The notes below the pieces were generated by a model. It was given only the letters and a program-made list of their open reading frames with translations. It was not told the DNA's origin and made no database searches. A stretch of 63,709 nucleotides of DNA from Candidatus Physcocola equi. GTDB lineage: Bacteria; Bacteroidota; Bacteroidia; Bacteroidales; Paludibacteraceae. This document shows positions 1,675 through 39,672 of the stretch, piece after piece. Within the stretch, counting starts at the first letter, position 1, and each line of letters starts with the position of its first letter. Position numbers and translations under genes: made by a program. The stretch is taken from the NCBI GenBank assembly GCA_018064855.1, contig JAGHUM010000021.1, positions 1-63,709 of the forward strand. The letters are read 5' to 3'.

Positions 1675-1926
1675 TCACATTTCGTCGATGTTGTCTTTGT
1701 AGTCATTATATCCATCCCCTTTCATCTTCAATTCTGGAGATTTGAGGATTTCTTTGTCCCCGTCAAAATGTTTGTTGAATGCTTCTGCCATTATTTGAGA
1801 CAGTTGTACGTGTGCCGGATTCCATAAACATTCGCTCCAGGCAATTCGGATTGCTATGCCGTTTACTTTGTCCGAATGCTCAAGGTGACGACAATAGTAT
1901 AATCCGCAAAACGAAATGTTAGACAA
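1675..1926 (-). CDS. Small hypothetical protein at the prophage edge
   Basis: 83 residues starting MSNISFCGLYYCRHLEHSD and ending in an acidic tail (GDGYNDYKDNIDEM). I do not recognise a family. Support comes from plausible amino-acid composition, a good terminator immediately downstream, and a divergent spacer with operator-like repeats shared with the ASCH gene. The first of those repeats overlaps its first codons. Whether it belongs to the phage or the host depends on the true phage end. Confidence 0.45.
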   Translation of the reverse strand: MSNISFCGLYYCRHLEHSDKVNGIAIRIAWSECLWNPAHVQLSQIMAEAFNKHFDGDKEILKSPELKMKGDGYNDYKDNIDEM

Positions 1927-13823: not shown

Positions 13824-16800
13824 CTATTTCATTTTTAGTCCGTCTAACATTATCTTATCGATTGATTCCTTGATTTCGCTCAGTCTTGACGCTGAGTTGC
13901 TAGTGTTGGTGGCGATTTGTCGGAGTTGGTCGCTCGCTTCGCTCATCTGCACCGACACGTCAGTCATTTTGTCATCAATACTCGCCCAATGTATTTGACC
14001 GCTAACGAACAGGCCTTCCAGTTTACCTGCTTGGTCTTGGGTCATTGTTGTGAATGCTCCAGCCTTTCCGCTTTGCGAAACACCGTTGTTGGAGTCTGTT
14101 TCCTTCACGATGCCTTCCGTTCGCAATGTCTCCAGGTCGCGTCTGGCGTTTTCAATATAGCTGTCATATTCGGCCTTTAGGGCATCCATGCGATTACGGT
14201 ATTCTACGTCGGTGATGTTGCCATTGGTACGAGACTCGTTGAGTTTGGCAAGTTCTTCATACCAACCCTCAAGTTCTTTTTGGAACTTTGAACCGACAAG
14301 GTTGTTAACCGCCATTCTGTTCACCATCTTTTGCCAGTTTTCAGCAATGTTGTCCATCACATCCTCACTTCCGTCGGCCATTTCGTACAAACTGTTAAGG
14401 AACTCATCAAACACGTTCCCCTTAGTTGTGGTGGTGAGTGTCTCATATAGTCCGTCGGTGATTTCCTGTATCTTCCCTGCTTGTTCGATGTAGTCGTTCA
14501 GTTTCTCTGCGACTCTTCCTCCATAGCCGCCCTTGCCGGTGTCCTGGATCTTCTGCCACATATCCACATTCGAGCGAAGCATCCTCATTTCCTCGGGTGT
14601 CAGGTTCCAAATACTTCCGTTCCAGTCACGGCCTATCTGCTTGCTGAGTCGGCTCACTTGCTCTTCGCTGTAGTCGCTCCAATAATAGTCGAAGGAGCGG
14701 TGGGCGCTGTGGTAGCCGGCTTGTGCTTGCGCAATCTGCAGATAGTTCTTGATGGTTGCCTCTTGCAGAACTTTCGCTCGCTCTGACGCGTCTATCGCAC
14801 TAGCGCCTCTTGCAGACTTCATCTCTTCGGTCAAGTCCTTGATGGATTGTTCGAGCAGGGCGTTGCACTTGGTCAGTCGGTCTATGGTCTTTGCCACTTC
14901 GTCCTCATTTGAGTTGAGGAACCAGTCGCTTGGACCTTTATGGCTGAGGGCACCGAAACTGAGTATGTTGCCTATACGGCCTATAACTCGGTCTAAAAGA
15001 CCTCCAATACCATCTACTACAATTGACTTGATTACCTTCCACAGATTGTCTGGAAGGTCGAAGACTGCATCTATCAAGTCGCCAATGGCATTGAGAATGC
15101 TGTTGACAAAATCGTCAATCCAACGGAGGCTGATCAGTTCGGTTATGGCATTGAGGACACCGGTGATAAAGTTCTTGATAGCACCTACGATGTCCAGGAT
15201 CAATCGTGGTATCTGTGCAACAATTCCGATGATGCCACCAATACTGCTCGACAGCATACTGCTAAGGCCACTGCCCAGGCTTCCGAGAGAACTACTGATT
15301 CCACTGCTTACTGTTGTGCCGATTGTCTTGGCCATACTGTCTCCCATTTGTGGAAGTATGGAGTCGAGCGTGCCTTTCAGCTTGTCGATGCCGCCAACGG
15401 CATTCTGCACGTTGCTGAAGCCGTCGGCACCGGTCCATCCTTTAGCGTTGCTCAGTGCTGTTGTCAGTCCGCTGGTGAAGTTGGCCACTTCTTCGCTGGT
15501 CCTATTCAATGCCGCACCGAATAGTTCCATGTCTTTTTTCGCGGTTGCTGTTGCGTCGCCTAACTCTTGTGCTTCTTTCTCGAGTTGTTTGAACTCAGCA
15601 TCGCTTATTTCTTTGTTTTTGAGTTTCTGTTTGCCTTCATCACGGGCCTTTACTGCAGCGTTCTCTGCTTTGACGGCCTTGTCGTATGTGGCAACCGAGT
15701 CGGTGAAGTTCTTGATGGCGTTGTCTAATGCTTTCCAGTTCATACTGTTGTCAGTACCAACATACTTGCGCATCTCCTGTATGAGTTCAGCCACCTTCTG
15801 TTGTGTGCCGCTGTCGGCATTCCGGTATTCTTCGGTCTGTGTCCATGCCTTCAGTTGCTCAATCATAGGTTGCATCATTTCCTTCGTAAGGTCACCGATG
15901 CTTCCAAATAGCGCTTGCCAGTCGATACCTCTTGATATGTTCTCGAAACTAAGGTTTGACTCCTTTTGCTGTCTCTCCTTGTCTAACAGTTTCTTCTGCC
16001 ATTGCTTTGTGGCTTCGTCAGCCTCCGATGCCTCCACTTCCGCAATCTTTTGCGCATACTCTTCCGCTATTGCGAGTTTCTGCTGTTGGAAGCTGCCATA
16101 TTCCTTCAGGTATTCCATCATGGCCTGCACTTCCGCTTTGCGTCTTGCGCGTTCCTGGTTCGCTTCCTCCTTGGCAATTTCCTTCTCTCCTTCCTCCATC
16201 TGTGACTTGGCCAGGCGGCGAGACGCAGTGAGAGCGGATTCCTGTTGCTGGCTCAATCCTCCGTTCTGAGCTTTACGCCATTGTTTTTCAAGATTGGCAA
16301 GTTCTGACAGCTCTTTCTCGTAATCGAGGCGCAACTGAGCCCGCTTCTTTTCTGAGCCCTCCTTCATTTGGTCTATTTCTGCCTGGCGGTTCTTTGCCTG
16401 AAGGTCCGACAATTCTTTAGCCAGTTTATTCTCTTCTTTCGTTGTGGAGGTCTTGTTATCTCCATTGTACTGCAGGTTTGATGGTATCTTCTGTTTTGCG
16501 GCCGATGCCTTCTTTGTCGCTTCTTCCCATTTCTGCGAGTAAAAGTCCACCTCTTCGTTATAGATCTTTTCGATTGATGCTTTTAACTCAAGAGCATTAT
16601 TTTTGCGGTATTGGTTCAGCTTTTCTTCACCTTGTTTGGTGAGTTTGAACTTGTTTGAATACTCCGATTGGTAGGACACATCGTAGTCACCTTTCCCTAA
16701 TTTGGCGTTTCGCCATTCTTCAGGCAGTATCATTCCAGATTGTTCGCGGTCTTTATCCGTTATGCTATTATAGTAGTCTCCGGTAGCTCTCGACTTGGTT

Positions 16801-18269
16801 CTGTGTTCCCATTTTTCTGCACGCTTCTTGATGGCTCCACTATACAGTTCGCTATAAGCCTCTGCCTCTGCTACTGATTTTAGGGCCGCTATCACTTCGG
16901 GTGCCATATTGACCAGCACCTGCTCTGCATCTGCAACAGAGTTGACATTAAGACCAAGGTCGTGGAACTTGTTGGCGTTGTCCTTTATCCACTTGTTTTT
17001 CTCTGCTTCAGTCCGCAATCGGCTCCACTGCTGTTGCAGAGAGCGGTATTTTGCCTCAACCTCTCCTGCTGATTTGCCGAGTGCCTGCGACATTTCCTCT
17101 TGCTGTTTCTTCAGACGCTCTCCTTCTTCACGTTGTTTCTTCTCTGCCTCTGTTGCCTCCTTTGCTCCAGATGAGAATGCGACCAGGGCACCGACTACAG
17201 TAAGCACTGCCGTTGCCAAGAGCACATACGGGTTAGCGTTCGCTACTGCGTTGAATGCCGCTTGGGCAACTGTTGCCAGTTTCGTCACTACGATTCCACG
17301 ACCCTCGGCCGCAGAACGCACAGAGATGGCCGCCGCATGGGCCTTTTCCTGTATGGTGCGTATGCCGATCATCAGTGAGCTTTCCTTCTGCAGGTTGTTC
17401 TGTATGACGGATAGTGCGTTGCTGATGGCGAGTGTTGCCTGAAGTTTGGTCTGTATGTTGACCAACTCCTCCTGCTTTGCTCCGAACATCTCAAACACGC
17501 TTATCGCAGCTCCTGCAGAAGATGCCACCACATTAAGGCCTTGTGCCATGGCATCGAAGTTCTTAGTGTCGGACGCATCGCCTTTTACCTGTCGGTTCAC
17601 ATCGTCCATCACGTCACGCAGATTGCTGGCCTTTTTCACCAGTTCCTCAATCTTGCGTTTGAGTTCCATACCGGCAGCGGAGTTACGTTCAGCTTCCGAC
17701 ATGTTGCGGTATTCCACTGTGGTGCTCTGTAGTTCGTTTGTCACCAAACGGAGTTGCGCACGCATACTCTCGGTCTTTTGCTCCGTCGCTTTGCTCGACG
17801 ATTCATTGATCATCGTTGGCAGCAGTTCAGCTTTCTTCTTGATGGTTTCGTAGGCTTCATCTATATTGGATTCTGCTGCTTCCAATTCGGTCTTTAGCGC
17901 ATCAGCCAGAACTGTGTTGCCGTTTTCCACATTCGTTCTAACCTGCTCCTCCATGACACGGATTCTGTTGGTTTGCGTCTCCACAAACTTTACATTCTGC
18001 TCGATGGATTTGACCAGGACACTTGCTGACTCCTTCTCAGATACGCCCATTGACTTTAACGATGACGACATCTTCTCAACTTCCTGACGGAGTGCGTTCA
18101 GTTTGTTGGCGTATTTGGTGGATGCTTTTTCTCCTTCCTGACCGCTCTGACCTATAACTTCCACCAAACGGCGAGAGGTGTCAAGCAACTGCTCAACACC
18201 TTCGCGATTCTTCTCCACTCCGCCCGACATCTTGTCCTTCATCAGAAATTCTATCTCAACCGGTTTCAT
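13824..18269 (-). CDS. Tail tape measure protein
   Basis: 1481 residues, the second longest gene in the phage, placed after the G/GT chaperone as in most long-tailed phages. It is rich in Ala, Glu, Lys and Gln, with long predicted helices and coiled coils (for example ~600-760). Hydrophobic segments lie near residues 345-365 (YVLLATAVLTVVGALVAF) and ~1000-1055 (SIGGIIGIVAQIPRLILDIV). These are usual tape-measure features: the helical rod sets tail length and the hydrophobic parts may help DNA cross the membrane. At about 1 residue per 1.5 angstrom the length suggests a tail of roughly 200 nm, an estimate only. Confidence 0.88.
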   Translation of the reverse strand: MKPVEIEFLMKDKMSGGVEKNREGVEQLLDTSRRLVEVIGQSGQEGEKASTKYANKLNALRQEVEKMSSSLKSMGVSEKESASVLVKSIEQNVKFVETQTNRIRVMEEQVRTNVENGNTVLADALKTELEAAESNIDEAYETIKKKAELLPTMINESSSKATEQKTESMRAQLRLVTNELQSTTVEYRNMSEAERNSAAGMELKRKIEELVKKASNLRDVMDDVNRQVKGDASDTKNFDAMAQGLNVVASSAGAAISVFEMFGAKQEELVNIQTKLQATLAISNALSVIQNNLQKESSLMIGIRTIQEKAHAAAISVRSAAEGRGIVVTKLATVAQAAFNAVANANPYVLLATAVLTVVGALVAFSSGAKEATEAEKKQREEGERLKKQQEEMSQALGKSAGEVEAKYRSLQQQWSRLRTEAEKNKWIKDNANKFHDLGLNVNSVADAEQVLVNMAPEVIAALKSVAEAEAYSELYSGAIKKRAEKWEHRTKSRATGDYYNSITDKDREQSGMILPEEWRNAKLGKGDYDVSYQSEYSNKFKLTKQGEEKLNQYRKNNALELKASIEKIYNEEVDFYSQKWEEATKKASAAKQKIPSNLQYNGDNKTSTTKEENKLAKELSDLQAKNRQAEIDQMKEGSEKKRAQLRLDYEKELSELANLEKQWRKAQNGGLSQQQESALTASRRLAKSQMEEGEKEIAKEEANQERARRKAEVQAMMEYLKEYGSFQQQKLAIAEEYAQKIAEVEASEADEATKQWQKKLLDKERQQKESNLSFENISRGIDWQALFGSIGDLTKEMMQPMIEQLKAWTQTEEYRNADSGTQQKVAELIQEMRKYVGTDNSMNWKALDNAIKNFTDSVATYDKAVKAENAAVKARDEGKQKLKNKEISDAEFKQLEKEAQELGDATATAKKDMELFGAALNRTSEEVANFTSGLTTALSNAKGWTGADGFSNVQNAVGGIDKLKGTLDSILPQMGDSMAKTIGTTVSSGISSSLGSLGSGLSSMLSSSIGGIIGIVAQIPRLILDIVGAIKNFITGVLNAITELISLRWIDDFVNSILNAIGDLIDAVFDLPDNLWKVIKSIVVDGIGGLLDRVIGRIGNILSFGALSHKGPSDWFLNSNEDEVAKTIDRLTKCNALLEQSIKDLTEEMKSARGASAIDASERAKVLQEATIKNYLQIAQAQAGYHSAHRSFDYYWSDYSEEQVSRLSKQIGRDWNGSIWNLTPEEMRMLRSNVDMWQKIQDTGKGGYGGRVAEKLNDYIEQAGKIQEITDGLYETLTTTTKGNVFDEFLNSLYEMADGSEDVMDNIAENWQKMVNRMAVNNLVGSKFQKELEGWYEELAKLNESRTNGNITDVEYRNRMDALKAEYDSYIENARRDLETLRTEGIVKETDSNNGVSQSGKAGAFTTMTQDQAGKLEGLFVSGQIHWASIDDKMTDVSVQMSEASDQLRQIATNTSNSASRLSEIKESIDKIMLDGLKMK

Positions 18270-20993: not shown

Positions 20994-22046
20994 TTAGGAT
21001 GCCTTGTAACCGCTCATCATGACAGCACCTGCGTCAGTCTTCTTAGGCATACAGATGAAGTAGTGGCGGAAGTTAATCTTGTTCTGCTGGTATTCTGGGT
21101 CAGTTGATGACTCGCTGTAGTACATCTTAGTCGAGCCAGTCGCCTTGAACACGCGCTGTGTGTAGAATGCGAAAGAGCATTGGAACTCGCCTGTTTCGGC
21201 AACAGCGCCAACAGACTTTTTCTTGCCAGCGGCTGTGTAAACAGGGTTGTTTGCGAATTCATAGATGTCGAATCCGAACAATCGGCCTACAGTGCCTTCG
21301 TTTCTGTTGATGTTGTACTGTTCCTTGAAACGCTGGTCAACTTCCAGAAGGTCGTTAACGTGGTCTCTGCAGAGCACTAGTCTTCGGCCTTGTGTAGGCA
21401 CTTTCAATTTGTCGAGCGACTTCTTCAGTTTGATGAGGTCCAAGGTTGTCAACTTCAAACGGCCTGTGTCAGCGTCACGCTCTCCGGTAGTCTGTAATAC
21501 TGGAGTTTTTGCTGTGTTTTCATTTGCGCACATACTGTGTGCAGCTTTTGCGAATTTAGCATCGGTGAGAGAGTTCGCGTGGCTTTCTTTCACACGGCTC
21601 ATCTTGTCATAGCTGATAGCATAAAGTTCGTCGTCTGTGATAGGAGTCACCTTGGTTTGGAACTTGTCAAGACCAATAGGAATATCTGCATCAGAAAGTA
21701 CCTGTGTAGGGATTGGATAGATGGTGTTGTTGATGATTACATCAGGATCGACACCAACATCTACTAGGTGGATGACATCGTTGTCTACTATTGAACTGTT
21801 GTCTGGAATACCATCCAACCATGTTGCTTCAAGGCCTGCACGCAGAGACTTTACCATCTCACCAGTCCAAACCTCAGTCAGAACACCGCCACGCAATGCG
21901 CCTTTCATGTCAGCGCCGCCCATCGCGACACCGATGGCGTTGGCACCGATACAACTCAATGCAGGTGAGAAGCCAGTCACCATGGCGAATGTTACACCTG
22001 CGAGGCAGTTAAACAAGACTGCCATAATAAATCGCATAAAAATCAT
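20994..22046 (-). CDS. Major capsid protein
   Basis: 350 residues. It follows the protease/scaffold gene directly, as in Mu-like and HK97-like phages. Features include the Ala/Gly-rich start, WLDGIPDNSSIVDNDVIHLV, IYPIPTQVLSDADIPIGLDK, a long helix region (LTTLDLIKLKKSLDKLKVP) and LFGFDIYEFANNPVY, a pattern of Bacteroidetes phage capsid subunits. Several Met codons occur in the first eight residues (MIFMRFIM), so the exact start is uncertain. The catalytic and structural assignment rests on synteny and general pattern. Confidence 0.8.
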   Translation of the reverse strand: MIFMRFIMAVLFNCLAGVTFAMVTGFSPALSCIGANAIGVAMGGADMKGALRGGVLTEVWTGEMVKSLRAGLEATWLDGIPDNSSIVDNDVIHLVDVGVDPDVIINNTIYPIPTQVLSDADIPIGLDKFQTKVTPITDDELYAISYDKMSRVKESHANSLTDAKFAKAAHSMCANENTAKTPVLQTTGERDADTGRLKLTTLDLIKLKKSLDKLKVPTQGRRLVLCRDHVNDLLEVDQRFKEQYNINRNEGTVGRLFGFDIYEFANNPVYTAAGKKKSVGAVAETGEFQCSFAFYTQRVFKATGSTKMYYSESSTDPEYQQNKINFRHYFICMPKKTDAGAVMMSGYKAS

Positions 22047-23677: not shown

Positions 23678-25231
23678 ATGAATGCGGATTTGAAACAACG
23701 GTATGCGGAATGGCAGGAGCACTGCAAGCGCATACAGTCAATTACCGACACTTCATCTCTTGTTAGCGAGACTCCGGTTCAGAAGGAGAAAAGGATCAAC
23801 AGGCTTCGGCAGAACTACGCTGATTTCTGCGAGTATTACTTTCCCCACTTCCTTACACTAACCGACAAGACGACAGGTGAAGTGATACGAACCGTCCACA
23901 ACGCTCCATTCCACAACTCTGCGGCATTGAAGGTAAAGAACACGCCAAACCTTAAAGCGGTGTTCAAATGGCCTCGCGGTCACGCCAAATCCACCCATTT
24001 CGACATCTTTCTGCCACTATGGATGATGTTCCAGAAAAGGAGGCTCATCAATGTGATGGTGATTGTCGGCAAGAGTGAGGACAGTGCCCGTGGACTTCTT
24101 TCTGATGTGCAGGCGGAGTTGGAATACAACCAGCGACTGATTGCCGACTTCGGCGAGCAGAAGAACCTGGGCAACTGGCAGGATGGCGAGTTTGTCACCC
24201 AGCAAGGTGTGGCATTCTTCGCCCGTGGCCGTGGCCAGTCTCCACGTGGTCTCCGTTACAAGGAGGCACGTCCTGACTACATCGTCATCGACGACTTGGA
24301 CGATGATGAGCTCTGCCGTAACGAGAAGAGGGTAAACGAACTCACAGATTGGGTAAGGGAAGCGCTGTTTGGTGCTCTTGACGTTGGCCGAGGGCGATTC
24401 ATCATGGTGGGGAACCTCATCTCCAAAAACTCGGTACTTGCCAAGATTGCGAATACCAAAGGGGTTTACGTGTCGGAGATTAAGGCGGTTGACCACAATG
24501 GCGAACCGGTGTGGAAAGACAAGTGGACAAAGGAGGAAGCCCAAGAGGCTGCCGCTTTCATGGGATACAGGTCGTGGCAGAAGGAGATGATGCACAATCC
24601 TATCATCGATGGAACCATATTCAGGATCGAGTGGATAAAGTACAAGAAAGCACTGCCACTGCACAAGTATGAGCAGCTGATTTGCTACACCGACCCTTCG
24701 TTCAAGTCTTCAAAAGACAACGACTACAAGGCTTCAAGACTATGGGGCAAGATAGGTTCGGAACTGCACCTTATCGACTGCTACGTCCGTCAAGACACCG
24801 TAAGCGGTATGGTGAGGTGGCTTTACAACCTTTACGAGAGCCTTCCCGAAAATGTGGTTGTTTCCTTCTTCATGGAGGCAAACTTCCTGCAGGACACTAT
24901 TCTCGACGAGTTTACCGCAGAGGGCAACATCAGGGGGTACCAACTCCCAATAATGCCAGACAAACGCAAGAAACCCGAAAAAATACAGCGTATTGAGGCT
25001 GTCAGCCCTCTGTGGGAGCGTGGTTTCGTGTACTACAACGAATCGCTCAAAGACTCGATAGACATGCAGGTGGGCATTGAGCAGACACTTGCGCTGCAGA
25101 GGGGGAGCAACGTGCACGATGACGCTCCCGATGCCGACGAGGGAGCAATATGGATGCTGCAGAGAAACAGCCGTCAAACAGAATTCAAACCGCGCTTTGG
25201 CAAACGCCCGAGCCCAAAAAACAAATGGTGA
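23678..25231 (+). CDS. Terminase large subunit
   Basis: 517 residues. The ATPase domain has a Walker A-like loop WPRGHAKST at ~98-106, as in other terminases where the loop is non-standard, and Walker B YIVIDDLDDDE at ~201-211. The nuclease domain has acidic residues in YTDPSFK (~337), FFMEANF (~403) and HDDAPDADEGA (~480). It translocates DNA into the prohead and cuts it; in Mu-like phages it packages headful-length DNA from integrated copies. Start chosen at ATG 23678, one base after the small subunit stop. Confidence 0.93.
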   Translation: MNADLKQRYAEWQEHCKRIQSITDTSSLVSETPVQKEKRINRLRQNYADFCEYYFPHFLTLTDKTTGEVIRTVHNAPFHNSAALKVKNTPNLKAVFKWPRGHAKSTHFDIFLPLWMMFQKRRLINVMVIVGKSEDSARGLLSDVQAELEYNQRLIADFGEQKNLGNWQDGEFVTQQGVAFFARGRGQSPRGLRYKEARPDYIVIDDLDDDELCRNEKRVNELTDWVREALFGALDVGRGRFIMVGNLISKNSVLAKIANTKGVYVSEIKAVDHNGEPVWKDKWTKEEAQEAAAFMGYRSWQKEMMHNPIIDGTIFRIEWIKYKKALPLHKYEQLICYTDPSFKSSKDNDYKASRLWGKIGSELHLIDCYVRQDTVSGMVRWLYNLYESLPENVVVSFFMEANFLQDTILDEFTAEGNIRGYQLPIMPDKRKKPEKIQRIEAVSPLWERGFVYYNESLKDSIDMQVGIEQTLALQRGSNVHDDAPDADEGAIWMLQRNSRQTEFKPRFGKRPSPKNKW

Positions 25232-25465: not shown

Positions 25466-25885
25466 ATGTTTCTAACGGAAGAAGACTTTCAGGTAGTTAT
25501 CGGTGATGCCGCATTGAAGGCGGTGTCACAGGTATCTGAAGAGAACCGGCAGAACGCCGAAATGGAAGCAATTGAGGAAATATCTGGCTACCTCAGACCA
25601 AAATACGACTGCAAGGCCATATTCTCTGCCAATGGGATTGAGAGGAACAGCCTTATCGTCATGTACACGTGCGACATTGCGCTGTACCACCTTGTGGCTT
25701 CTATGCCGCAGAAGATGGGTTCCGAAATTAGGAAGGAACGGTACGAGCGTGCAGTCAAGTGGTTGGAGGGTGTCCAGGCAGGAAAGATAGTGCCAGACCT
25801 GCCTCTTGTTACAGATGAAGACGGCTCTCCTGTCAATGGTTCCTTCATTTGCGGCTCACAAAGTAAACTACGTCATAACTGGTAA
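25466..25885 (+). CDS. Mu gp36-like protein (DUF1320 type)
   Basis: 139 residues. The sequence (MFLTEEDFQVVIGDAALKAV, then EEISGYLRPKYDCKAIF, then IVMYTCDIALYHLVASMP, then RYERAVKWLEGVQAGKIVPD) follows the gp36/DUF1320 pattern of head-tail connector proteins: an N-terminal helix, YLRxKYD, and LYHL followed by RYExAxxWL. It acts in head completion or head-tail joining. It is separated from its neighbours by 2 and 4 bases. Confidence 0.8.
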   Translation: MFLTEEDFQVVIGDAALKAVSQVSEENRQNAEMEAIEEISGYLRPKYDCKAIFSANGIERNSLIVMYTCDIALYHLVASMPQKMGSEIRKERYERAVKWLEGVQAGKIVPDLPLVTDEDGSPVNGSFICGSQSKLRHNW

Positions 25886-25889
25886 TAGT

Positions 25890-27227
25890 ATGGGAATTTT
25901 ACAAGATATCAAACAGCGCATAATGGGCAATCCTACTGTCCTGCGCACTAGTTACGGAGACTTCAATCTTGCTAAGAAAGATGATGTCAGACGGCTACAG
26001 AAACAAGTCATTCAGCTACAGCGGACAACTGATGCGCTTACACGAAAAGACATCAGAGACTGGAGGTCTGCTTGGCAGATGGCGATCAATGTGGAGAATC
26101 CGAATCGTCAGAGACTATACGACATATATGGCGATGTGAACATCGACCTGCACCTTTCGGGCTGTATCGAGCAGAGAAAGGGTTATGTGCTCGCCCGTTC
26201 TTTCAAACTTGTTGACCCAAAGGGGAACGAGGATGAGGAAGCCATGCACTATTTCGACCAGTCCTGGTTCAAGCAGCTCATGGGCTATGTGCTCGACTCA
26301 AGGTATTGGGGACACTCGCTCATCGAGTTGGGAGATGTCACCACCGATGGAGACGGATGCGTGTGCTACGATGGGGTGAGACTTGTGCCAAGAAAGCACG
26401 TCATACCAGAATACAACCGTGTTGTGGTAAATTTGGGAGACGAGTGGAAAGCGGGAATAGACTATCACCAGCCACCATTCAGCGACTGGCTTATTGAAGC
26501 GGGGTCGCCAGACGACCTTGGATTGTTCCTAAAGGCGGCAACGCAAACAATACCTAAGAAGAACGCACTCGCTTTCTGGGATACATTCGCCGAGATTTTC
26601 GGTATGCCTATGCGAATAGCGAAGACTACGCTCAGAGACGAGAAGGAACTGAAAAGGATGGAGGAAATGATGGCCAACATGGGAACCGAGTTTTGGGGCC
26701 TATTCCAAGAGGGGACTGAGATTGACGTTGTGGAATCAACCAAGGGCGATGCCTTCAATGTTTATGACAAACGCGTCGACAGGGCGAACTCCGAGCTGTC
26801 TAAGCTCATCATCGGCCAGACTATGACCATTGAAGACGGTTCGTCGCTTTCGCAGTCGGAAACACACCTTCAGGTTTTCGAGAACCTGGTTGAATCGGAC
26901 CGCGACATGTTGCGCGACATCGTCAACAACCAACTCATTCCACGCATGATGAAGCATGGTTTCCCCGTTAAGGGACTTCGATTCGATTGGGACTATTCTG
27001 TGGACTACACTCCAGAACAGCAACGCTCATACGAGGAGCTTGTGCTTAACAACTACGAAGTGGACCCTTCTTATTTCGAGGAGAAATACAGTATGCCTGT
27101 TGGCGAGCGTAGGAGCATGATGCCTACTCCGACACCAGACTCTCCTGCTGATGACGAGGAAGGAGACGATGATCCGGACGATAAGAAGAAGAAACAGCAG
27201 CACAACGCACATGGTTTTTTCGACTGA
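25890..27227 (+). CDS. Portal protein (Mu gp29 / DUF935-like) with frameshift signal at its end
   Basis: 445 residues from MGILQDIKQRIMGNPTVLRT. Typical portal features: helix-rich body, QRLYDIYGDVNIDLHLSGCI, RKGYVLARSFKLV, YWGHSLIELGDV, FGMPMRIAKTT and a long helix near SLSQSETHLQVFENLVESD. It forms the dodecameric DNA channel of the head. The end is low complexity (acidic, then Lys/Gln) and finishes HGFFD. The codons for the last residues form a T TTT TTC slippery heptamer followed by a stem-loop, so a fraction of product is predicted to continue into the MuF frame. Confidence 0.88.
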   Translation: MGILQDIKQRIMGNPTVLRTSYGDFNLAKKDDVRRLQKQVIQLQRTTDALTRKDIRDWRSAWQMAINVENPNRQRLYDIYGDVNIDLHLSGCIEQRKGYVLARSFKLVDPKGNEDEEAMHYFDQSWFKQLMGYVLDSRYWGHSLIELGDVTTDGDGCVCYDGVRLVPRKHVIPEYNRVVVNLGDEWKAGIDYHQPPFSDWLIEAGSPDDLGLFLKAATQTIPKKNALAFWDTFAEIFGMPMRIAKTTLRDEKELKRMEEMMANMGTEFWGLFQEGTEIDVVESTKGDAFNVYDKRVDRANSELSKLIIGQTMTIEDGSSLSQSETHLQVFENLVESDRDMLRDIVNNQLIPRMMKHGFPVKGLRFDWDYSVDYTPEQQRSYEELVLNNYEVDPSYFEEKYSMPVGERRSMMPTPTPDSPADDEEGDDDPDDKKKKQQHNAHGFFD

Positions 27228-27301: not shown

Positions 27302-28753
27302 ATGCCTATGGAGTTGGGGAAAGGCGACCTGCTGAAGAGACTGCGTGAAGCGTTCTCTGCCATGATGGGAACACTGCACAAGCAGAAAGGCGCTTCGCTC
27401 GACATTCAGATAATGGCAGACCCTTCGGTTACAGATTTTATCGAAAAACATTCCTCGGTGCTCGACTCTGCCATACAGCAGCAGCCAATGTCCGAAGGCA
27501 TGCGCAACCGACTCCAACGCTCGAACTACATATTCTCGGGCATGAAGACGTTCCACGAACTGAACGAGGCATTCCCTTCCTTGCTTGATGAGAATGGCAA
27601 TAGAAAGCCGTTCGAACAGTTTTTGAACGAGGTTCAAAATATAGACTCTAAATACAACAGCAACTACCTTCGGGCAGAGTACAACTTTGTCCAGGCATCA
27701 GCGGAGATGGCGGCAAAGTGGGAGCAGTTCATGGAGGATGGCGACCGATACTATCTGCAGTACCGCACGCAGAAGGACGACAAGGTGCGTCCGGAACATG
27801 CGGCACTCGATGGCGTTACACTGCCACCTTCCGACTCGTTCTGGGAGGAATACTACCCACCTAACGGATGGAACTGCCGATGCACCGTTGTCCAAGTTCG
27901 AAAGTCAAAATACCCGGCTACTCCTCACGACGAGGCAATGGCAAGAGGGCAGGTGGCTTTAGACAAAGACACGCGAGGCATCTTCCATTTCAATCCTGGC
28001 ATTGAGCAGAAGACCGTTCCAGACTACAACCCATACACAATCAAGAGGTGCCGTGACTGCGATATCTCTTCAAAACTTGCAGGATACATACCCGACAATG
28101 AAGTGTGTGCCGCATGCAAATTGGTACACAAGTGTTACGAAAACAAAACAGTGGGAAATGAAATAAAGCAAAATAAGGAAAGAAATAAGGAGCTATATGA
28201 TAAAATGAAGATAGATAAGGAATTTAGATTCGTAGAATATAATGAAGAGACTGGCGGTATAAAAGCCGAAAGTATTCATCATAATAGCACGTCAAAAGGC
28301 GACAAATTTTTCACTAATGAAAACAACGGGAAGGGGTATTCTGGTCCTGAACTAGAAAAGTTTTGTCAGGATGAATTGTATATGAAAGGACATTCGTGTA
28401 TTCTGATGGGAGAGAACCTACCTAAAGGAGATGGAACTTTCTTGACCGCACTAGATGCTATTATTGACTGTCACAGAATGGATATCAGAACCATAACTGA
28501 AAATTCAGATAATTATCGAAATCAGATTACGTCAAAAAATAAGCAATTAAAAAAATGGTTAGAACAGAATCCCAATTCTTCAGAAGATAGCGTGTGCCTA
28601 TACTTCCATGACAGTAGTATGTTTTCAGAGCAGAAAATGAATAATACGATTAGTGCAATAAGAAATAGTCAACGAATCATGTCGACATTAAAAATAAACC
28701 GTATAGTATGTGTTGTAAGGCAGGGGCCTATCAAGGAGTATCGCATTAGATAA
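27302..28753 (+). CDS. MuF head morphogenesis protein with C-terminal toxin-like domain
   Basis: 483 residues from the first ATG. The open frame begins at 27185, and its upstream part (RLSPSDYEGLHQRYSEIL) looks like genuine MuF N-terminus although it has no ATG, GTG or TTG, which fits translation by frameshift from the portal. The MuF domain includes YYPPNGWNCRCTVVQV near residues 182-200 and two Cys pairs (CRDCD, CAACK) near 240-270. From about residue 280 base composition falls sharply and a new module begins: FRFVEYNEETGGIKAE, MKGHSCILMGEN, then DAIIDCHRMDIRT (385-397), which looks like a PD-(D/E)XK-type nuclease core, and SVCLYFHDSSMF. Such modules end MuF and CDI polymorphic toxins. Target and activity are inferred. 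Confidence 0.8.
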   Translation: MPMELGKGDLLKRLREAFSAMMGTLHKQKGASLDIQIMADPSVTDFIEKHSSVLDSAIQQQPMSEGMRNRLQRSNYIFSGMKTFHELNEAFPSLLDENGNRKPFEQFLNEVQNIDSKYNSNYLRAEYNFVQASAEMAAKWEQFMEDGDRYYLQYRTQKDDKVRPEHAALDGVTLPPSDSFWEEYYPPNGWNCRCTVVQVRKSKYPATPHDEAMARGQVALDKDTRGIFHFNPGIEQKTVPDYNPYTIKRCRDCDISSKLAGYIPDNEVCAACKLVHKCYENKTVGNEIKQNKERNKELYDKMKIDKEFRFVEYNEETGGIKAESIHHNSTSKGDKFFTNENNGKGYSGPELEKFCQDELYMKGHSCILMGENLPKGDGTFLTALDAIIDCHRMDIRTITENSDNYRNQITSKNKQLKKWLEQNPNSSEDSVCLYFHDSSMFSEQKMNNTISAIRNSQRIMSTLKINRIVCVVRQGPIKEYRIR

Positions 28754-28864: not shown

Positions 28865-29095
28865 ATGAGCAAAATTTTATCATTTCTTAGAGAATCGAAC
28901 CGAATTAAGCACCTTTTAGGCGGTTTTTTGGTTGCGTTATTCGCTTTTGGAGCAATTCAGGCAGTCTATGCCTCAATTGTGGCTGCTTCTTGTCTTGAGT
29001 TCAAAGACAAACTTTGGGGCGGAAAATGGGATTGGATTGACTGGGCATTCACCGTTTTTGGTGGAATTGTTGCCTCAATCATCTATCTTTTTTAA
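28865..29095 (+). CDS. Small membrane protein, holin candidate
   Basis: 76 residues. Two hydrophobic segments (HLLGGFLVALFAFGAIQAVY, and WAFTVFGGIVASIIYLF) flank a conserved-looking loop with KDKLWGGKWDWIDW. The pattern (R/N-rich start, HLLGGF, KDKxWGGxWDWIDW) is familiar from small membrane proteins of Bacteroidetes phages that are sometimes called YfiM-like. Two TMs and 76 residues suit a holin that lets the endolysin out, but its distance from the endolysin makes this uncertain. It is not an obvious immunity protein for the MuF toxin module. Confidence 0.6.
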   Translation: MSKILSFLRESNRIKHLLGGFLVALFAFGAIQAVYASIVAASCLEFKDKLWGGKWDWIDWAFTVFGGIVASIIYLF

Positions 29096-29136
29096 GTCTT
29101 GGAGGTCTCAGCGCAGTTAATTTGTTAATTATGCAG

Positions 29137-29144
29137 TAAATTTG
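29137..29144 (+). promoter_or_regulatory. Bacteroidetes -7 promoter box before the template repeat
   Basis: TAAATTTG matches TAnnTTTG and lies 25 bases before the TR. Transcription would start at about 29151 and make an RNA that begins close to the TR and runs into the reverse transcriptase gene. A -33 element at the ideal distance is not obvious; a TTTG lies 12 bases upstream. Confidence 0.6.
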
Positions 29145-29150
29145 CCCGCA

Positions 29151-29487
29151 AAAGGTGGAGTTCCATATAAGCCGTGTGGTTTATCGTGGGTACAACAACG
29201 CGAACGCGAATGGCGGTGTATCGAATGCGAATGCGAATAACGATGCATCGAACTCGAACGCGAATATCGGCTCGCGTCTGGACAACAGTATAATATCGGC
29301 GTACAACACAAGGAACGGGTTTCCTGCCGTCGTGCCGAATGGAACAAGCCTCACTAAAAGCAGCCCTCACAGGCTGGAATGTGAAAAATCAAGTGTTGGA
29401 CAAAGTTTGGTAGGTCAGCAATGATTCGAAGAAGTTAGGTCCAGGGAAAGGAAGGCCCACATCTTCCTATTTGCCAAATCAAGTAAC
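29151..29487 (+). ncRNA. Predicted TR-containing RNA leader of the DGR
   Basis: This stretch has no gene. It contains the TR (29169-29281) and a ~206-base spacer before the reverse transcriptase ATG. In studied DGRs the RNA spanning TR and the TR-RT spacer is both template and cofactor for mutagenic cDNA synthesis. The spacer includes purine-rich blocks (ccagggaaaggaaggcc) and short inverted repeats. RNA boundaries are inferred from the promoter box. Confidence 0.55.
29169..29281 (+). repeat. DGR template repeat (TR)
   Basis: 113 bases, 30 of them A, mostly in AAC and AAT triplets. Read as protein it would give SRVVYRGYNNANANGGVSNA and so on, the Asn-rich form of the fibre C-terminus, but it has no gene structure of its own. 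Identical to the VR except at 8 adenines. The 3' GC-rich block (cggctcgcgtctgg) is identical in both copies, and the sequences diverge right after it. Confidence 0.97.
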
Positions 29488-30789
29488 ATGCGAAGAGAAG
29501 GTTACATCATCGAGGAGATAACACAGTACCACAACATGTACAACTCTTTCGACAAGGTGCTTCAAGGCTCCAAGCGAAAGAACAGTGTTCAGGGTAGAGT
29601 GTTGCTTGCTCAAAGGGAAGAAGTCATCAAGGAACTCACCGAGCTGATCGCTAAAGGGGAGTTTCGTGTAAAGGACTACCACGAGCGAGACATCATCGAG
29701 GGTGGAAAGCTAAGGCGCATACAGATTCTCTCGATGAAAGACCGCATTGCCATCCACGCCATCATGAACGTGGTCGATGAGCATTTGCGGAAACGGTTCA
29801 TCCGGACGACATCTGCAAGCATCAAGAACCGTGGCATGCACGACCTGAAGGAGTATATCCAGCGCGACATGCGCGAGAACCCCGAAGGTACGAGGTTCTG
29901 CTACAAGTTCGACATATCGAAGTTCTACGAGAGTGTCAACCAGGAGTTCGTGATGTACTGCGTCAGACGCGTTTTCAAGGATGAGAAACTCATTGCCATG
30001 CTCGACAACTTCGTCCACATGATGCCCAATGGGCTCAGCATCGGTCTCCGAAGCTCACAAGGCCTCGCAAACCTCCTTCTATCGGTGTTTCTCGACCACT
30101 ACATTAAGGACAAATATGGTGTGCGCTATTTCTACCGCTACTGCGACGATGGTGCCGTCCTTGCTGGTTCGAAGGCTGAACTATGGAATATTCGTGATAC
30201 CATACACGGGCTTATCGAGGATATCGACTTGAAGGTAAAGTCGAATGAGCGCGTGTTCCCGGTCACGGAAGGAATAGACTTCCTTGGATATGTCATATAT
30301 CCAAACCACTCCGAACTCCGCAAGCGCATCAAGAAACGCTTTGCGAGGAAGATGCACACAGTTAAAAGCAGAAAGAGACGGAGTGAACTCATAGCGTCAT
30401 TCTACGGAATGGCGAAACATGCCGACTGTAACAATCTATTCAATAAATTAACAGGCAAAAACATGAGATCATTCAAAGACTTGAACGTCGCCTTCAAACC
30501 AGAAGACGGCAAGAAGCGTTTTGCGGGTACGGTGGTAAGTATCCGCGAGTTGGTAAACCTTCCCATCATCGTAAAGGACTTCGAGACGGGCATAAAGACC
30601 GAACAGGGCGAAGGCCGATGCATCGTGTCCATCGAGGTGAACGGTGAGATGAAGAAGTTCTTCACCAACAGTGAGGAGATGAAGAACATCCTCACACAGA
30701 TAAGAGAAATGCCAGACGGCTTCCCTTTCGAGACCACCATCAAGACAGAAGCCTTCGGCAAAGGTCGAACAAAATACGTTTTTAGTTAA
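29488..30789 (+). CDS. DGR reverse transcriptase
   Basis: 433 residues. The polymerase core runs to about residue 310: the region RFCYKFDISKFYESVNQEF holds the first catalytic Asp, IGLRSSQGLANLLLSVFLDH is the fourth RT motif in the SQ form seen in DGR enzymes (group II intron enzymes usually have SP), and YRYCDDGAVLAGS contains YCDD at 218-221. FLGYVIYPNHSELRK follows, as in other RTs. A further ~110 residues (from about KNMRSFKDLNVAFKPE) form a strand-rich extension resembling a small nucleic-acid-binding domain; its family is not recognised. The enzyme copies TR RNA with errors at adenines and the cDNA replaces the VR. No Avd-type accessory gene is seen next to it. Confidence 0.95.
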   Translation: MRREGYIIEEITQYHNMYNSFDKVLQGSKRKNSVQGRVLLAQREEVIKELTELIAKGEFRVKDYHERDIIEGGKLRRIQILSMKDRIAIHAIMNVVDEHLRKRFIRTTSASIKNRGMHDLKEYIQRDMRENPEGTRFCYKFDISKFYESVNQEFVMYCVRRVFKDEKLIAMLDNFVHMMPNGLSIGLRSSQGLANLLLSVFLDHYIKDKYGVRYFYRYCDDGAVLAGSKAELWNIRDTIHGLIEDIDLKVKSNERVFPVTEGIDFLGYVIYPNHSELRKRIKKRFARKMHTVKSRKRRSELIASFYGMAKHADCNNLFNKLTGKNMRSFKDLNVAFKPEDGKKRFAGTVVSIRELVNLPIIVKDFETGIKTEQGEGRCIVSIEVNGEMKKFFTNSEEMKNILTQIREMPDGFPFETTIKTEAFGKGRTKYVFS

Positions 30790-31274
30790 TGAGGAGAATT
30801 GAAGGTTCTGAAGGTGTTGAACTCATTGAATGCGTCAACCCTATCAGAGACAAGTGGCGCATCCGCTGGGATGTGCAGAAACAAGATAACGGCAATGTGA
30901 ACTACATGGAGGCTGAGTTCAACCACAAGCCGTCCGATTCGGAGATAAGAGACACTGTGTTCGGATGGATCAACCGACGCACGGAAGACAAGATCCTGAC
31001 AGGACTCATCTACGACGGACACATGGTGTGGCTCTCTTCCGAGAACCAGTTCAACTACAAGGCGCTCTACGACCTCGCACACCAAAGCAAGGGAATATCC
31101 CTGCCGGTCACTGTGAAGCTCGGCACTGATGACGAGCCACACTACATGGAGATTGACTCTATGGCCAAAATGGGAGACTTCTACATGGCTGCATTGTATC
31201 ATGTAAGGAGGACGCTCGAGGAAGGCTGGAAGATGAAGGACGAGTTCTCGATTGACGACTACCATAAGAGCTGA
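30789..31274 (+). CDS. Conserved phage hypothetical protein after the RT
   Basis: 161 residues, starting at the stop codon of the reverse transcriptase (the two genes overlap by one base), so likely co-translated. The C-terminal half (VWLSSENQFNYKALYDLAHQ, then SLPVTVKLGTDDEPHYMEID, then FYMAALYHVRRTLEEGW) resembles a small domain found at the end of many Bacteroidetes phage tail-associated proteins (DUF4376-like). It is too long and too beta-rich to be a classical four-helix Avd protein, but its tight linkage to the RT leaves a DGR-related role open. Function unknown. Confidence 0.65.
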   Translation: MRRIEGSEGVELIECVNPIRDKWRIRWDVQKQDNGNVNYMEAEFNHKPSDSEIRDTVFGWINRRTEDKILTGLIYDGHMVWLSSENQFNYKALYDLAHQSKGISLPVTVKLGTDDEPHYMEIDSMAKMGDFYMAALYHVRRTLEEGWKMKDEFSIDDYHKS

Positions 31275-35023: not shown

Positions 35024-35896
35024 TTATCCGTGTTTCAGTTTCTCGATCTCGGTATAGACGCGACGGAGGCCACCTCCGCTCTTCCTTACGACCAGTGCGA
35101 TGTCGGTGCCTTCTGGTGCGTTCAGTTTCGCTATGACGCGTGCCTGCTCGTTAAGGAACTTCTCGCGTTCGCGTCCGTCGTCTGGTGTCACACGGCTGTA
35201 TCGGTCGCCATAGCGGCTCAGCATTTCGGTGTAGCCCACCTTCTTGCAGTCGATGGAGCGGTTGATCTTCTCCTTCAGTCCGTCAGCCCCCATCATGTAC
35301 CATGCGCAGCAGCGCTCTGTGGCGTTCCAAAGCGCCTTCAGTTCAAGGAAGGCCTCATACTGCAGGTCGCCAGCCTCGTCGAGCACGATGAGCGGGTTTT
35401 CGATGGAGCGGAGGTAATAGACCAGGTCTTCATACATGTCGGCATACCTTCCGTGCGTGCCCACTCCAAACTCTCCGGCAATCTTCTTCACCATCTTCAG
35501 TTTCGTCTTCACCTGGCTGCAGTCGATGTAGATGGCGTTGGCATGGTGTGCCACGTAGTGGCGTGCGGTGAAGGTCTTGCCAATGTTGGGTATGTCGCAG
35601 AGTATGCCGCTCAATCCAGCGCTCTGGCACAGCTCCAACTGTGCGTTGATGTACTTGAACGTTGATGTGTTGGCGGCCTTCCACTCGATTTCGCCACGCA
35701 GGCTGACGTTCAGTCGGCGTGCGATGCTTATCCAGTTGGCGTCGCTCAGCACTTTTTCTGTCTGCCCGTTCTTGATGGCCGAGTAAACGCTTGTCGTTAT
35801 TCCGAGTGATGCCGCGTGCTTGGCATCGCTCGGGTAGTTGGCGCGGTTCGCGTTGATCGCGCCAATAATCTTCTTTTTGTTCTCTGTTGTAATCAT
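35024..35896 (-). CDS. MuB-like transposition target ATPase
   Basis: 290 residues. The N-terminal ~70 residues form a lambda-repressor-like HTH (KHAASLGITTSVYSAIKNGQ). The AAA+ domain has a P-loop CDIPNIGKTFTA (~100-110), where the first Gly of the usual motif is Asp, and Walker B PLIVLDEAGDLQ (~167-177). It delivers target DNA to the transposase and gives target immunity in Mu. The gene follows the transposase by 23 bases in the same operon. Confidence 0.88.
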   Translation of the reverse strand: MITTENKKKIIGAINANRANYPSDAKHAASLGITTSVYSAIKNGQTEKVLSDANWISIARRLNVSLRGEIEWKAANTSTFKYINAQLELCQSAGLSGILCDIPNIGKTFTARHYVAHHANAIYIDCSQVKTKLKMVKKIAGEFGVGTHGRYADMYEDLVYYLRSIENPLIVLDEAGDLQYEAFLELKALWNATERCCAWYMMGADGLKEKINRSIDCKKVGYTEMLSRYGDRYSRVTPDDGREREKFLNEQARVIAKLNAPEGTDIALVVRKSGGGLRRVYTEIEKLKHG

Positions 35897-35919: not shown

Positions 35920-37929
35920 TTATAAGTCGGCCAGGGCTCTCATAACGCTGTCCTCTGGCTCGTATGTTTCTTCATCCGTCACGTCTTCCACAACCTCCTC
36001 TGCCACCTCTATGTCTTCGTCGTCGGCAGGCTTGGTGTAGGCTTCGTCCACAGGCTTTGCCACTCCGACCTTGCCGATGGCGTTCTCGCGGATGTACTTG
36101 CCGAACTTGGCTATCTTCTTCTGTTGCTCTATGTAGTTGGCAACGTCTTCGTCGGTCTGTTCTGCCATCACGCGGTTGTAGGTCGCTATCCGCTCCAGTT
36201 GGTCGATGTACCTTTCGCCTTGGAAGATATAGACGTCAGTCGCCTTTCCTTCCTCGTCTGGTATGTAGTAGGCTGTCACCTTGTAGTCGTTTGGCTGCAG
36301 TTTCTCAAGCACCTCGGTGCCGCTCAGCCACCAGTCTTCGTAGGCCACCCTTACAGTTGAGTTCCTCTTCACGCTTGTTTCCACCCTCTCGCCGATGTAG
36401 CGGCTTAGTGTCACCTTGTTCAGCGGCTGCAGTGTAGGGTTGATGTTAGCCACAAGCACGTCCCACCTCGTCATGCCGGGATACTTCTTCTGGTTGGGGT
36501 GCAGGGTGTTGTTCCACTCCATGCTGTCTGCACGGTCTTCCTCCACCAGCTGCTCCCAGCTGAAGTATTCCTTGTCTTCGTAGAGTTCGTTGGTCTCGTC
36601 GCTAATCTTCTGCGACTCTGTGCGCCATTTTCCCTTGCCGTAGAAGCGTCCGATACCTTCGTGGTTCTTGTGTATCACACTGCGTTTCTTCGCTCCGTTG
36701 AGCGGCTCTGCGTACTTCTCTTGCGAGTTCTGCGGTGCGCAGAAGTGCACGAACGGGAAGGCGACACCAGCCTGAAGGAATCCGTCCTTGTACTGTGTCA
36801 TGAGGTGGTTTTCCACCTCGATGCCTGCCGGCATTCCCCATCCGTTACGCTCTATCAGCCTGAACATGTCGCGGAAGCATTCCACCACCAGCAGTTCGTC
36901 CTTCTTCCTGGCGTAACTCGCACCAATCACGCATTGGCTGACCACATCGTAGGCATAATAGGCGTGCACCCTCTGCTTGGTGTCTTTCAGCTTGCGAGTG
37001 AGGTCCACGTCGTCCATCGTGATCTGGCTGAGAGAGAATTCGCCGTTGTGGCGGTGCATGTGGGGCATGTTCTCGTGCATGAAGGTTGTGTATAAGTCCA
37101 GCCTGTGGGCTATCAGCAACTTGTTCTTGGGTTTGTTAAGTATGTTGTTGATGGTGGTCTCGCTCAGCACCAATGGGTCTCCGTTCTTGTCGGTGAAGTC
37201 GTCGGGGTTGTACAGTTCACCTGTATCGAGGTCATACACGTCGAGTTCGCCACACACAAACTGGTTATACATCTCTGCCACGTTGGTGTTGTATGGCTTG
37301 TTTGGAAGGATCGCGATACTTACGATTAGTTTTTCCACCTTGATGTCAACCTTCCTTGCGCTCTGGTTGCCGAACTTGCCGGAGATAAGGCACGCATATC
37401 CGTTGTTCTTGTACTCGTTCACCTTCTTGCGGAAGCGGAGTGTGCTTGCCGGCAGTGTGTGTCCGAAATCCTTTCTCAGGCTCTCGATGGTAGAAGCCAT
37501 CTGGTCCCAGTTGTACTTGTTTCCGAACAGCTTTTGTGCGGTCTGTGCGCGTTCGTAAAGCTTGATGCAGGTGTTCAGCACGCTTGCGTTCACCACATAC
37601 TCCTTGATTTTGTCTTCCGGAAGGTCCACGCCGGTCTCTTTCTTGTCGTGGAAGAACACCACTGCGGCCTGGTCGGTCTCGTAGTTGCTCTTTATCCATC
37701 CGCTCAGCCTTGTTTTGTCGCCTTCAGGATAGAGGAGGTCCACTTTCTCCTTGTAGGTGGTAGGAAGACTGTCAACGGCAATCAAGGCGTAATTGCCAAG
37801 GCCCTTGCCCTGCCTAACCACGTCCACCTTTCCACGCGCTACCAACTGCTTGTAGTTGGCTGAGGTCATCACAGCCTTGTCCACAAGCTCGCGCATAGAA
37901 ATACATAGTTTACCGCCGAAATATTCCAT
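35920..37929 (-). CDS. MuA-like transposase
   Basis: 669 residues. The N-terminus (LCISMRELVDKAVMTSANYK) is HTH-like, followed by a DNA-binding region with RFRKKVNEYKNNGYA. The catalytic RNase H fold begins near ITMDDVDLTRKL (~305, first Asp), then VHAYYAYDVVSQCVIGASYA. The second acidic position appears to be Glu in GIEVENHLM (~371) rather than Asp, and the third Glu lies in QEKYAEPLNGAKKRS. The Mu-type C-terminal beta barrel follows (VTLSRYIGERVETSVKRNST). It performs cut-and-join replicative transposition. Confidence 0.92.
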   Translation of the reverse strand: MEYFGGKLCISMRELVDKAVMTSANYKQLVARGKVDVVRQGKGLGNYALIAVDSLPTTYKEKVDLLYPEGDKTRLSGWIKSNYETDQAAVVFFHDKKETGVDLPEDKIKEYVVNASVLNTCIKLYERAQTAQKLFGNKYNWDQMASTIESLRKDFGHTLPASTLRFRKKVNEYKNNGYACLISGKFGNQSARKVDIKVEKLIVSIAILPNKPYNTNVAEMYNQFVCGELDVYDLDTGELYNPDDFTDKNGDPLVLSETTINNILNKPKNKLLIAHRLDLYTTFMHENMPHMHRHNGEFSLSQITMDDVDLTRKLKDTKQRVHAYYAYDVVSQCVIGASYARKKDELLVVECFRDMFRLIERNGWGMPAGIEVENHLMTQYKDGFLQAGVAFPFVHFCAPQNSQEKYAEPLNGAKKRSVIHKNHEGIGRFYGKGKWRTESQKISDETNELYEDKEYFSWEQLVEEDRADSMEWNNTLHPNQKKYPGMTRWDVLVANINPTLQPLNKVTLSRYIGERVETSVKRNSTVRVAYEDWWLSGTEVLEKLQPNDYKVTAYYIPDEEGKATDVYIFQGERYIDQLERIATYNRVMAEQTDEDVANYIEQQKKIAKFGKYIRENAIGKVGVAKPVDEAYTKPADDEDIEVAEEVVEDVTDEETYEPEDSVMRALADL

Positions 37930-38318: not shown

Positions 38319-38487
38319 ATTGTTTAATCTTTGCTTAAAATCTGATTTGTTTGTGAATTTTCGTTTTTCTGCGCAGAATTTTGTAACATTGCAAATAAGT
38401 TAATTTCTTAACTACGTCGCAAAAATAGTGACATCTCACGATTTTGCAAACTATTTTCGTGAAAGATTACGATTTTAACATAAAATT
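38319..38487. promoter_or_regulatory. Lysogeny control region between divergent regulators
   Basis: 169 bases, AT-rich, between the early HTH gene (-) and the repressor (+). It contains attttcgtttttctgcgcag, the dyad gttaatttcttaac, and two copies of a TCACGAT/TTACGAT-like word near 38435-38475 (tctcacgattttgc and gattacgattttaac), which could be operators. Promoter boxes are not clear enough to place. Confidence 0.5.
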
Positions 38488-39471: not shown

Positions 39472-39499
39472 AAAAAAAGCCGTGAGCAACGCCCACGGC
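39472..39499 (-). terminator. Terminator of the channel gene
   Basis: On the minus strand GCCGTG and CACGGC (39479-39499) form a GC-rich stem followed by TTTTTTT. It lies ~170 bases past the channel stop and, if it belongs to that gene, implies that the prophage ends to its left. Confidence 0.7.
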
Positions 39500-39672
39500 C
39501 AGCCTATATAACACTATTAAAATCGCATGTAATCTGGTGTAAACCTAAAGGATCGTTTCAACCCCGATATGTAAAGCAAAATTAAACAAATGTAAACGTT
39601 TCGTTTTGTGCCGCCCTTCTCCCCATTTCTCCATAACTCGCTATCACTCACAAACTTCAACCAACTTTCACA

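Follow-up and report, generated by a model that had tools for sequence, protein, structure and literature searches.

A remote diversity-generating retroelement in a Mu-like prophage

We analysed a 63,709-nt stretch of Candidatus Physcocola equi DNA (assembly GCA_018064855.1, contig JAGHUM010000021.1, positions 1 to 63,709; hereafter the window), which carries a Mu-like prophage encoding MuA, MuB, a Mu-type portal, MuF, terminase, head and tape-measure proteins. This prophage contains a diversity-generating retroelement (DGR) whose parts lie at opposite ends of the phage. The template repeat (TR; 29169..29281, plus strand; 113 nt with 30 adenines) stands in a plus-strand unit that follows the gene for the MuF-like head protein (27302..28753, plus strand; PF04233) and consists of a 76-residue gene, the TR, an RT-3 RNA, a reverse transcriptase (RT) gene and a DUF4376-type gene. 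We refer to the TR, RNA and RT as the core. The only variable repeat (VR; 2450..2562, minus strand) lies 26.6 kb away, within the gene for a predicted tail fibre of 2285 amino acids (2382..9239, minus strand), where it encodes residues 2227-2263. As the VR is on the minus strand, the two repeats form an inverted pair, and a repeat finder reported them as one inverted repeat with 26,606 nt separating its arms. The RT gene begins 207 nt past the end of the TR, next to it as a first-pass annotation of this DNA had stated, but 26.9 kb from the VR. That annotation did not notice that core and target lie far apart and on opposite strands.

TR and VR differ at adenines only. A gapless 113-nt alignment of the TR with the reverse complement of 2450-2562 has eight mismatches, 8/8 of them on TR adenines, and 0/83 non-adenine TR sites differ, exactly as first described. 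The probability of eight random differences all landing on the 30 adenines of 113 positions is 1.1e-5, close to the earlier estimate of about 2 in 100,000. The VR carries four A>G substitutions, one of them silent, as had been noted; the A>T changes, described before as three pairs giving Phe or Tyr, are in fact four substitutions spread over three codons. Seven codons are altered and six of these change the residue: N2236F (two A>T), N2247Y and N2250Y (one A>T each), and N2238S, N2240S and N2254S (one A>G each), with the silent A>G at V2243 (GTA>GTG). The VR sits at the 3' end of a coding gene, in frame with the Asn codons of the TR. Six Asn residues near the C-terminus are indeed changed, as the first-pass annotation had it; the tail-fibre role that it gave the gene is inferred from the gene's position and from the naming of the hankyphage counterpart in papers. 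Chance or simple duplication as the origin of the pair was rejected on account of the adenine-only differences. We also searched the host genome (2.99 Mb, 121 contigs) for a further VR or TR; the repeat occurs at two places only, the TR and VR of the window, and an RVT_1 (PF00078) search found one RT.

The core and its neighbours

The RT (29488..30789, plus strand; 433 aa) has IGLRSSQ at residue 185 and YCDD at 218. The former is an IGxxxSQ-type motif, a mark of DGR RTs. The best matches in the PDB, by both sequence and fold, are DGR RTs, including the 8ub7 family, which we take to be BPP-1 structures; these structure matches cover almost only residues 1-278. Over its full length, the RT is 75% identical to that of hankyphage p00, placing it in the hankyphage family. 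Its C-terminal extension (residues 326-433; 30463-30786 in the window) is conserved and corresponds to phrog_19665, a family of unassigned function. The extension has a predicted strand-strand-strand-helix-strand-strand structure and matches no Pfam family above cut-off. Among the best 120 of its 170 related proteins, none could be settled as a genuine stand-alone protein.

Between TR and RT lies a full-length match to the Rfam RT-3 RNA (RF03068; 29294..29443, plus strand; 117 bits, E 8.5e-29). The same RNA was matched at full family length in 20/20 related loci submitted, and hence this Rfam family seems to supply the RNA partner in DGRs of the hankyphage type. The term 'RT-3 RNA' does not occur among the literature matches listed. 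Downstream of the RT, and overlapping its stop codon by one base, is a gene for a 161-aa protein (30789..31274, plus strand; phrog_19239), the counterpart of the hankyphage DUF4376 protein; the next gene begins 59 nt beyond it. The 76-aa small protein (28865..29095, plus strand), of unassigned function, is found ahead of the TR in many loci, under either of the two arrangements described below. The window therefore has the RT family, RT-3 RNA and DUF4376-type gene in hankyphage-type order, but its core region (28865-31274, plus strand) is not downstream of the fibre VR (2450-2562, minus strand) on the same strand.

Distribution of the remote layout

We classed 66 RT-bearing loci (window included, near-copies kept) by their nearest upstream phage gene. 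The fibre is upstream in 46/66 (class A) and a head-module gene in 16/66 (class B, to which the window belongs), while 4/66 were unclassifiable. In one class B locus (L009, 4.3 kb), which is set apart in the RT tree, the core follows a different head gene; this represents a third core site, in a head module that has a hankyphage-like MuF, where a neck-type gene comes before the core. In four class B phages (SN4_B, ME_B, G007 and G005), the Mor, ThyX and methylase genes, found at the end of the hankyphage genome, have moved with the core.

A tree of 50 distinct RTs requires at least seven changes between the two layouts, and a single origin of the remote layout, with class B RTs as one clade, was rejected (p-AU 0.00025). 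Together, these indicate that the layout was gained or lost, or that cores were exchanged between layouts, several times. Exchange of core sequences between layouts accounts for the RT tree as well as repeated relocation does. Of 17 related-RT loci, 16 have record names of taxa that we take to belong to the order Bacteroidales, and one is named as an uncultured bacterium; phages from several Bacteroidales genera share the remote layout. An RT of this kind was found at E 1e-60 in 2/61 kin genomes (the window's own and one other), and at the same threshold in 0/5 other genomes of the window's genus. In one further locus (L017), perhaps a decayed core, the RT contains an internal TAG and a TR/VR pair could not be recognised.

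Most measured remote pairs differ at adenines only

To compare the window with its relatives, 65 sequences were submitted and 44 distinct own TR/VR pairs were measured on a 108-nt stretch of the repeat; 22 sequences have no row of their own, as the TR or VR was missing, the VR was broken or unreadable, or the pair was already counted. Counting the window and its relatives together, 32/44 pairs have no non-adenine difference, and 35/44 have at most one. Seven of the 44 are remote inverted pairs, with spans of 25.8-26.6 kb. Five of these seven are adenine-only: the window (8 adenine differences), the remote pair of G007 (5), G005 (11), L045 (7) and G286B (11). The remaining two are the cross cases in Parabacteroides massiliensis and Mediterranea massiliensis discussed below. 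UBA1710, with an RT 88% identical to that of the window, has an eighth remote fibre, and the readable edges of its VR agree with its TR.

Nine pairs have more than one non-adenine difference. Six of these VRs fit another TR (those of the adjacent G007 pair, L047, L007, L056, L044 and L098). A further one, L101 (86 readable nt), shows 12 adenine and 5 other differences from its own TR but 8 adenine and 0 other from a co-resident TR. The non-adenine differences in L022 are due to a 3-nt gap, and its best 90-nt stretch has 10 adenine differences and no others. Three loci of one genome (L087, L100 and L103 of G341) have VR deletions mostly at TR adenines, which may be an artefact of taking a consensus over mixed VRs.

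The closest view of variation in the window's own fibre comes from a protein (P0001, 2285 residues) that is 96% identical to the last 356 residues of the window fibre, found among the best 120 of 2682 matched proteins. The two fibres differ at 26 of 2285 residues; 10 of these differences fall within the 37-residue VR and 16 in the other 2248 residues (Fisher p 1.5e-12). All 10 VR differences are at adenine-bearing TR codons, which make up 18/37 of the codons (p 1.3e-4). A near-identical fibre therefore exists in a second VR state, as a DGR would make. Together with the adenine-only pattern and the DGR RTs that are the closest structures, this hypervariability at adenine codons supports mutagenic homing, as the first-pass annotation had proposed, and the remote core likely acts on its VR at a distance.

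Apparent homing between co-resident prophages

Reciprocally swapped VRs are seen in two genomes. In P. massiliensis SN4 (G022), a class A and a class B prophage (SN4_A and SN4_B) have RTs about 132 kb apart on one contig; in M. massiliensis (G020), ME_A and ME_B lie on two contigs. Each of the four VRs fits the TR of the other prophage rather than its own. Over the 108-nt stretch, the SN4_A VR differs from its own TR at 13 adenines and 13 other sites, but from the SN4_B TR at 13 adenines and 0 other sites. The corresponding adenine and other differences are 15 and 10 (own) vs 11 and 0 (SN4_A TR) for the SN4_B VR, 9 and 6 vs 8 and 0 (ME_B TR) for the ME_A VR, and 10 and 4 vs 9 and 0 (ME_A TR) for the ME_B VR. 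Over this stretch, the TRs of SN4_B, ME_B, G001 and the remote core of G007 are identical.

Comparisons with close relatives confine the exchange to the VR. ME_A and the class A phage L092 have 0 differences over 4191 nt (584 nt leading up to the VR, 495 nt separating it from the TR, the TR itself and 3004 nt beyond the TR), yet 21 differences inside the VR. A single RT of this kind and no second core were found in the genome of L092 (G321), and the L092 VR retains the backbone of the shared TR (13 adenine differences, 0 other), whereas that of ME_A does not. L091 and L099, which have the same TR as ME_A, also retain its backbone; L100 and L103 share this TR too but were left out because their VRs are broken. 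Likewise, the SN4_B, ME_B and L114 fibres show 0-6 differences per 100 nt in the flanks and 17-29 within the 108-nt VR. The VR of L114, the third B-type fibre, has the B-type TR backbone (5 adenine differences, 0 other); we assume that its core is that of contig G001, which bears the same genome number. Among the class A right ends, SN4_A, G007 and L007 have 0-1 differences in the 900 nt before the VR and 0 in the 2500 nt after it, while their VRs have 13-16 mutual differences, all at adenines of the B-type TR. Their adjacent TRs are identical yet fit none of these VRs. G007 has two cores; its VR has 5 adenine and 0 other differences from the remote TR, and 6 adenine and 13 other differences from the adjacent one. 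It fits the remote TR alone, and hence the VR of this dual-core phage follows the remote template.

Crossing is not universal. A rule that each VR in a two-core cell is written by the other core was rejected, as L086 and L099 (G468), G286B and L094 (G447) use their own TR. In G447 the crossing is one-way, with L101 crossed and L094 fitting its own TR. Of five two-core genomes judged, three have a crossed VR and two have none (in G286, only the class B VR was judged). Mismatches between the two TRs of a genome number 7 (M. massiliensis), 13 (G447, where one of two VRs is crossed) and 14 (SN4) over 108 positions in the crossed genomes, and 19 (G468) and 25 (G286) in the uncrossed ones. From these five genomes, we infer that repeat similarity may decide whether crossing occurs.

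SN4_A itself (G022:C3, ~1012890-1018170) has a head protein near the end of its fibre gene and no match to a tape-measure or upstream tail gene, yet its VR has the backbone of another prophage.

Proposed mechanism and alternative explanations

We propose that the DGR core of this Mu-like prophage (TR, RT-3 RNA and RT), located beside MuF, 26.6 kb from and inverted to its sole VR, produces error-prone complementary DNA (cDNA) that is predicted to act in trans, overwriting the VR in the 3'-terminal part of the predicted fibre gene; we put the probability of this at roughly 0.93. Four features can be read from the sequences themselves: a TR/VR difference confined to adenines, the layout, an RT of the DGR type, and the recurrence of this layout, together with adenine-only VRs, in relatives. 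The TR and RT-3 RNA would be on one transcript, from which the RT would copy the TR into cDNA with errors at adenines. The BPP-1 system needs sequence beside its TR, and a structured RNA there would fit. The cDNA would then enter the VR at its conserved 3' edge, and by homology on the 5' side, and the altered VR residues would presumably change receptor binding. Nothing in this chain binds a template to its own phage. The distance between core and VR also seems immaterial, since in the relatives a TR on one prophage apparently rewrote the VR of another. The sequences of relatives thus provide strong evidence for action of such cores across prophages. We consider it probable that DGR cores of this phage group act cell-wide, the template of one prophage writing the fibre of a co-resident prophage by mutagenic homing, with the head-module core as a heritable layout that lets template and target evolve and be exchanged separately.

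Several observations weigh against the proposed mechanism. In UBA1710, the nearest class B relative with a fibre, the VR is unreadable and the pair cannot be measured. L021 has seven non-adenine differences that fit no TR in the set. P0001 is known as a protein only. The first-pass annotation expected a TR that stays fixed, but in one related lineage (L093 and L094) the TR (1188-1295 in RT orientation) differs from that of sister phages at three adenines, all A>G; here the template, too, seems to have undergone overwriting or mutation. The annotation also called the DGR complete. This needs qualifying: TR, VR and RT are all present, but family searches identified no Avd-type accessory protein, including among the 76-aa and 161-aa neighbours. 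Finally, the AlphaFold2 model of the fibre C-terminus has a pLDDT of 33, too low to judge whether it has a C-type lectin fold, and a profile of the VR domain searched for this fold had no sequence match in the PDB.

The VR might instead have been diversified while the core still adjoined the fibre, the relocated core now being a passenger with no remote homing. Such relocation is plausible, as the core lies beside the fibre in the majority of loci (46/66, hankyphage p00 included), and the eight changes in the window could be old. However, the absence of any difference at the 83 non-adenine sites leaves little time for drift, and P0001, whichever position its core has, represents a second VR state in a near-identical fibre. 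The remote layout is accompanied by adenine-only VRs in G005, L045 and G286B as well, and the G007 VR fits its remote rather than its adjacent template. We therefore find a passenger core hardly credible.

The swapped VRs of P. massiliensis and M. massiliensis could also have arisen without homing. Ordinary homologous recombination or gene conversion between the fibre genes has some appeal; the genes are related, prophages within one cell recombine, and G007 looks recombinant, its right end being 99.8% identical to SN4_A over 6950 nt. Yet the exchanged tract does not reach beyond the VR (mismatches between SN4_B and ME_B are 3/100 immediately upstream, 26/108 within and 0/100 immediately downstream), and at its edges, by eye, unbroken identity between the two fibres of one genome extends over no more than about 9-21 nt. 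Moreover, within the 108-nt stretch each VR departs from the donor TR solely at adenines, so that the copied VR would need to have been freshly written from that same TR; two bases just upstream of this stretch in SN4_B match neither TR. Recombination is hence unlikely. An assembly error exchanging two similar VRs would give just the reciprocal swap seen in both named genomes, and VRs do assemble badly (they are unreadable in L101 and UBA1710 and contain deletions in G341). The same short shared edges of about 9-21 nt (again by eye) argue against a mis-join, however, as does the one-way case in G447. In addition, one A-type right end occurs in three independent records (SN4_A, G007 and L007), each with the B-type backbone but with different adenine changes. 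Assembly error is thus very unlikely. Mutagenic homing between prophages is the likeliest reading of the swapped VRs.

Relation to known systems

Hankyphage DGRs have been described and are active in culture (PMC6199706, PMC12135933). Like the window, hankyphage p00 (BK010646) has an RT followed by a DUF4376-type gene, Mu-like transposition genes, an adenine-only TR/VR pair and a VR at the 3' end of a fibre gene of similar length (~2250 residues vs 2285 in the window). In p00, however, the VR (38049-38164), TR (38419-38534) and RT (38743-40047) are on one strand within 2 kb, whereas the core in the window occupies the head module, at a distance of 26.6 kb and in inverted orientation. The MuA, MuB, MuF, portal and neck proteins of the two phages share 28-35% identity in matched stretches. 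An Avd is reportedly marked for hankyphages in a figure of PMC12135933. The window DGR is real, and its layout is its novelty relative to known hankyphage DGRs. Bordetella phage BPP-1 (PMC3240598) shares the DGR RT fold and likewise has its VR in the 3'-terminal part of a gene for receptor binding, but it has Avd and its VR is nearby. Its target needs the 3' region of the VR and a downstream hairpin, and homing works from a donor plasmid (PMC3240598).

Distal VRs are already known (PMC12629997, PMC4891356, PMC7517822). In Thiohalocapsa PB-PSB1 (PMC10907252) and Treponema denticola (PMC4891356), the VR is far from the core, but these are chromosomal loci of one bacterium; in gut prophages (PMC12629997), the distal VR is a second VR besides that of the cassette, while the only VR in the window is remote. 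Trans activity between DGR loci of one bacterial genome has been proposed using the same non-adenine argument (PMC10907252), and a remote VR of T. denticola SP32 fits the TR of another strain type better than its own (PMC4891356). Unlike in all these systems, the apparent donor and target in the relatives of the window are on two different prophages. The text of the open-licence literature matches listed (figures, such as the Hankyvirus maps in PMC12629997, lie outside this scope) contains no report of a hankyphage-type DGR with a remote VR only, nor of homing between prophages.

Surveys that look for the VR beside the RT overlook the remote layout; the 2021 DGR catalogue says that its own method would not detect remote targets (PMC8144416). 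As this layout recurs in several Bacteroidales genera, tallies of DGRs and of their targets in such phages are probably underestimates. If cross-prophage homing does occur, tail-fibre diversity would be a trait common to co-resident prophages, and the receptor repertoire of one phage would depend on which other prophage shares the cell, even one like SN4_A. The cross-prophage cases make existing isolates a ready test of natural trans homing between phages.

Other genes and the ends of the prophage

On the plus strand, the head module also encodes the terminase large subunit (23678..25231; phrog_38) and the Mu-type portal (25806..27227; PF06074, 254 bits). On the minus strand are the genes for the tail tape measure protein (13824..18269; phrog_9959), the major head protein (20994..22046; phrog_267), a MuB-like transposition protein (35024..35896; phrog_296) and a MuA-like transposase (35920..37929; phrog_310). 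The fibre protein matched no Pfam family. The closest phage-collection record to the class B portal is an unannotated 4.4-kb faecal contig (69.9% identity).

The related prophages SN4_B and ME_B are 98.35% identical across 40,985 nt, and the limits of this shared stretch give their ends. By similarity to these common ends, the right end of the window prophage is at 1898..1918 and the left end at 39592..39607 (both plus strand), so the prophage runs from about 1898 to 39607. No convincing target-site duplications were seen at the ends of these three prophages. Outside the prophage, positions 18-467 of the window contain direct repeats at 90-nt spacing.
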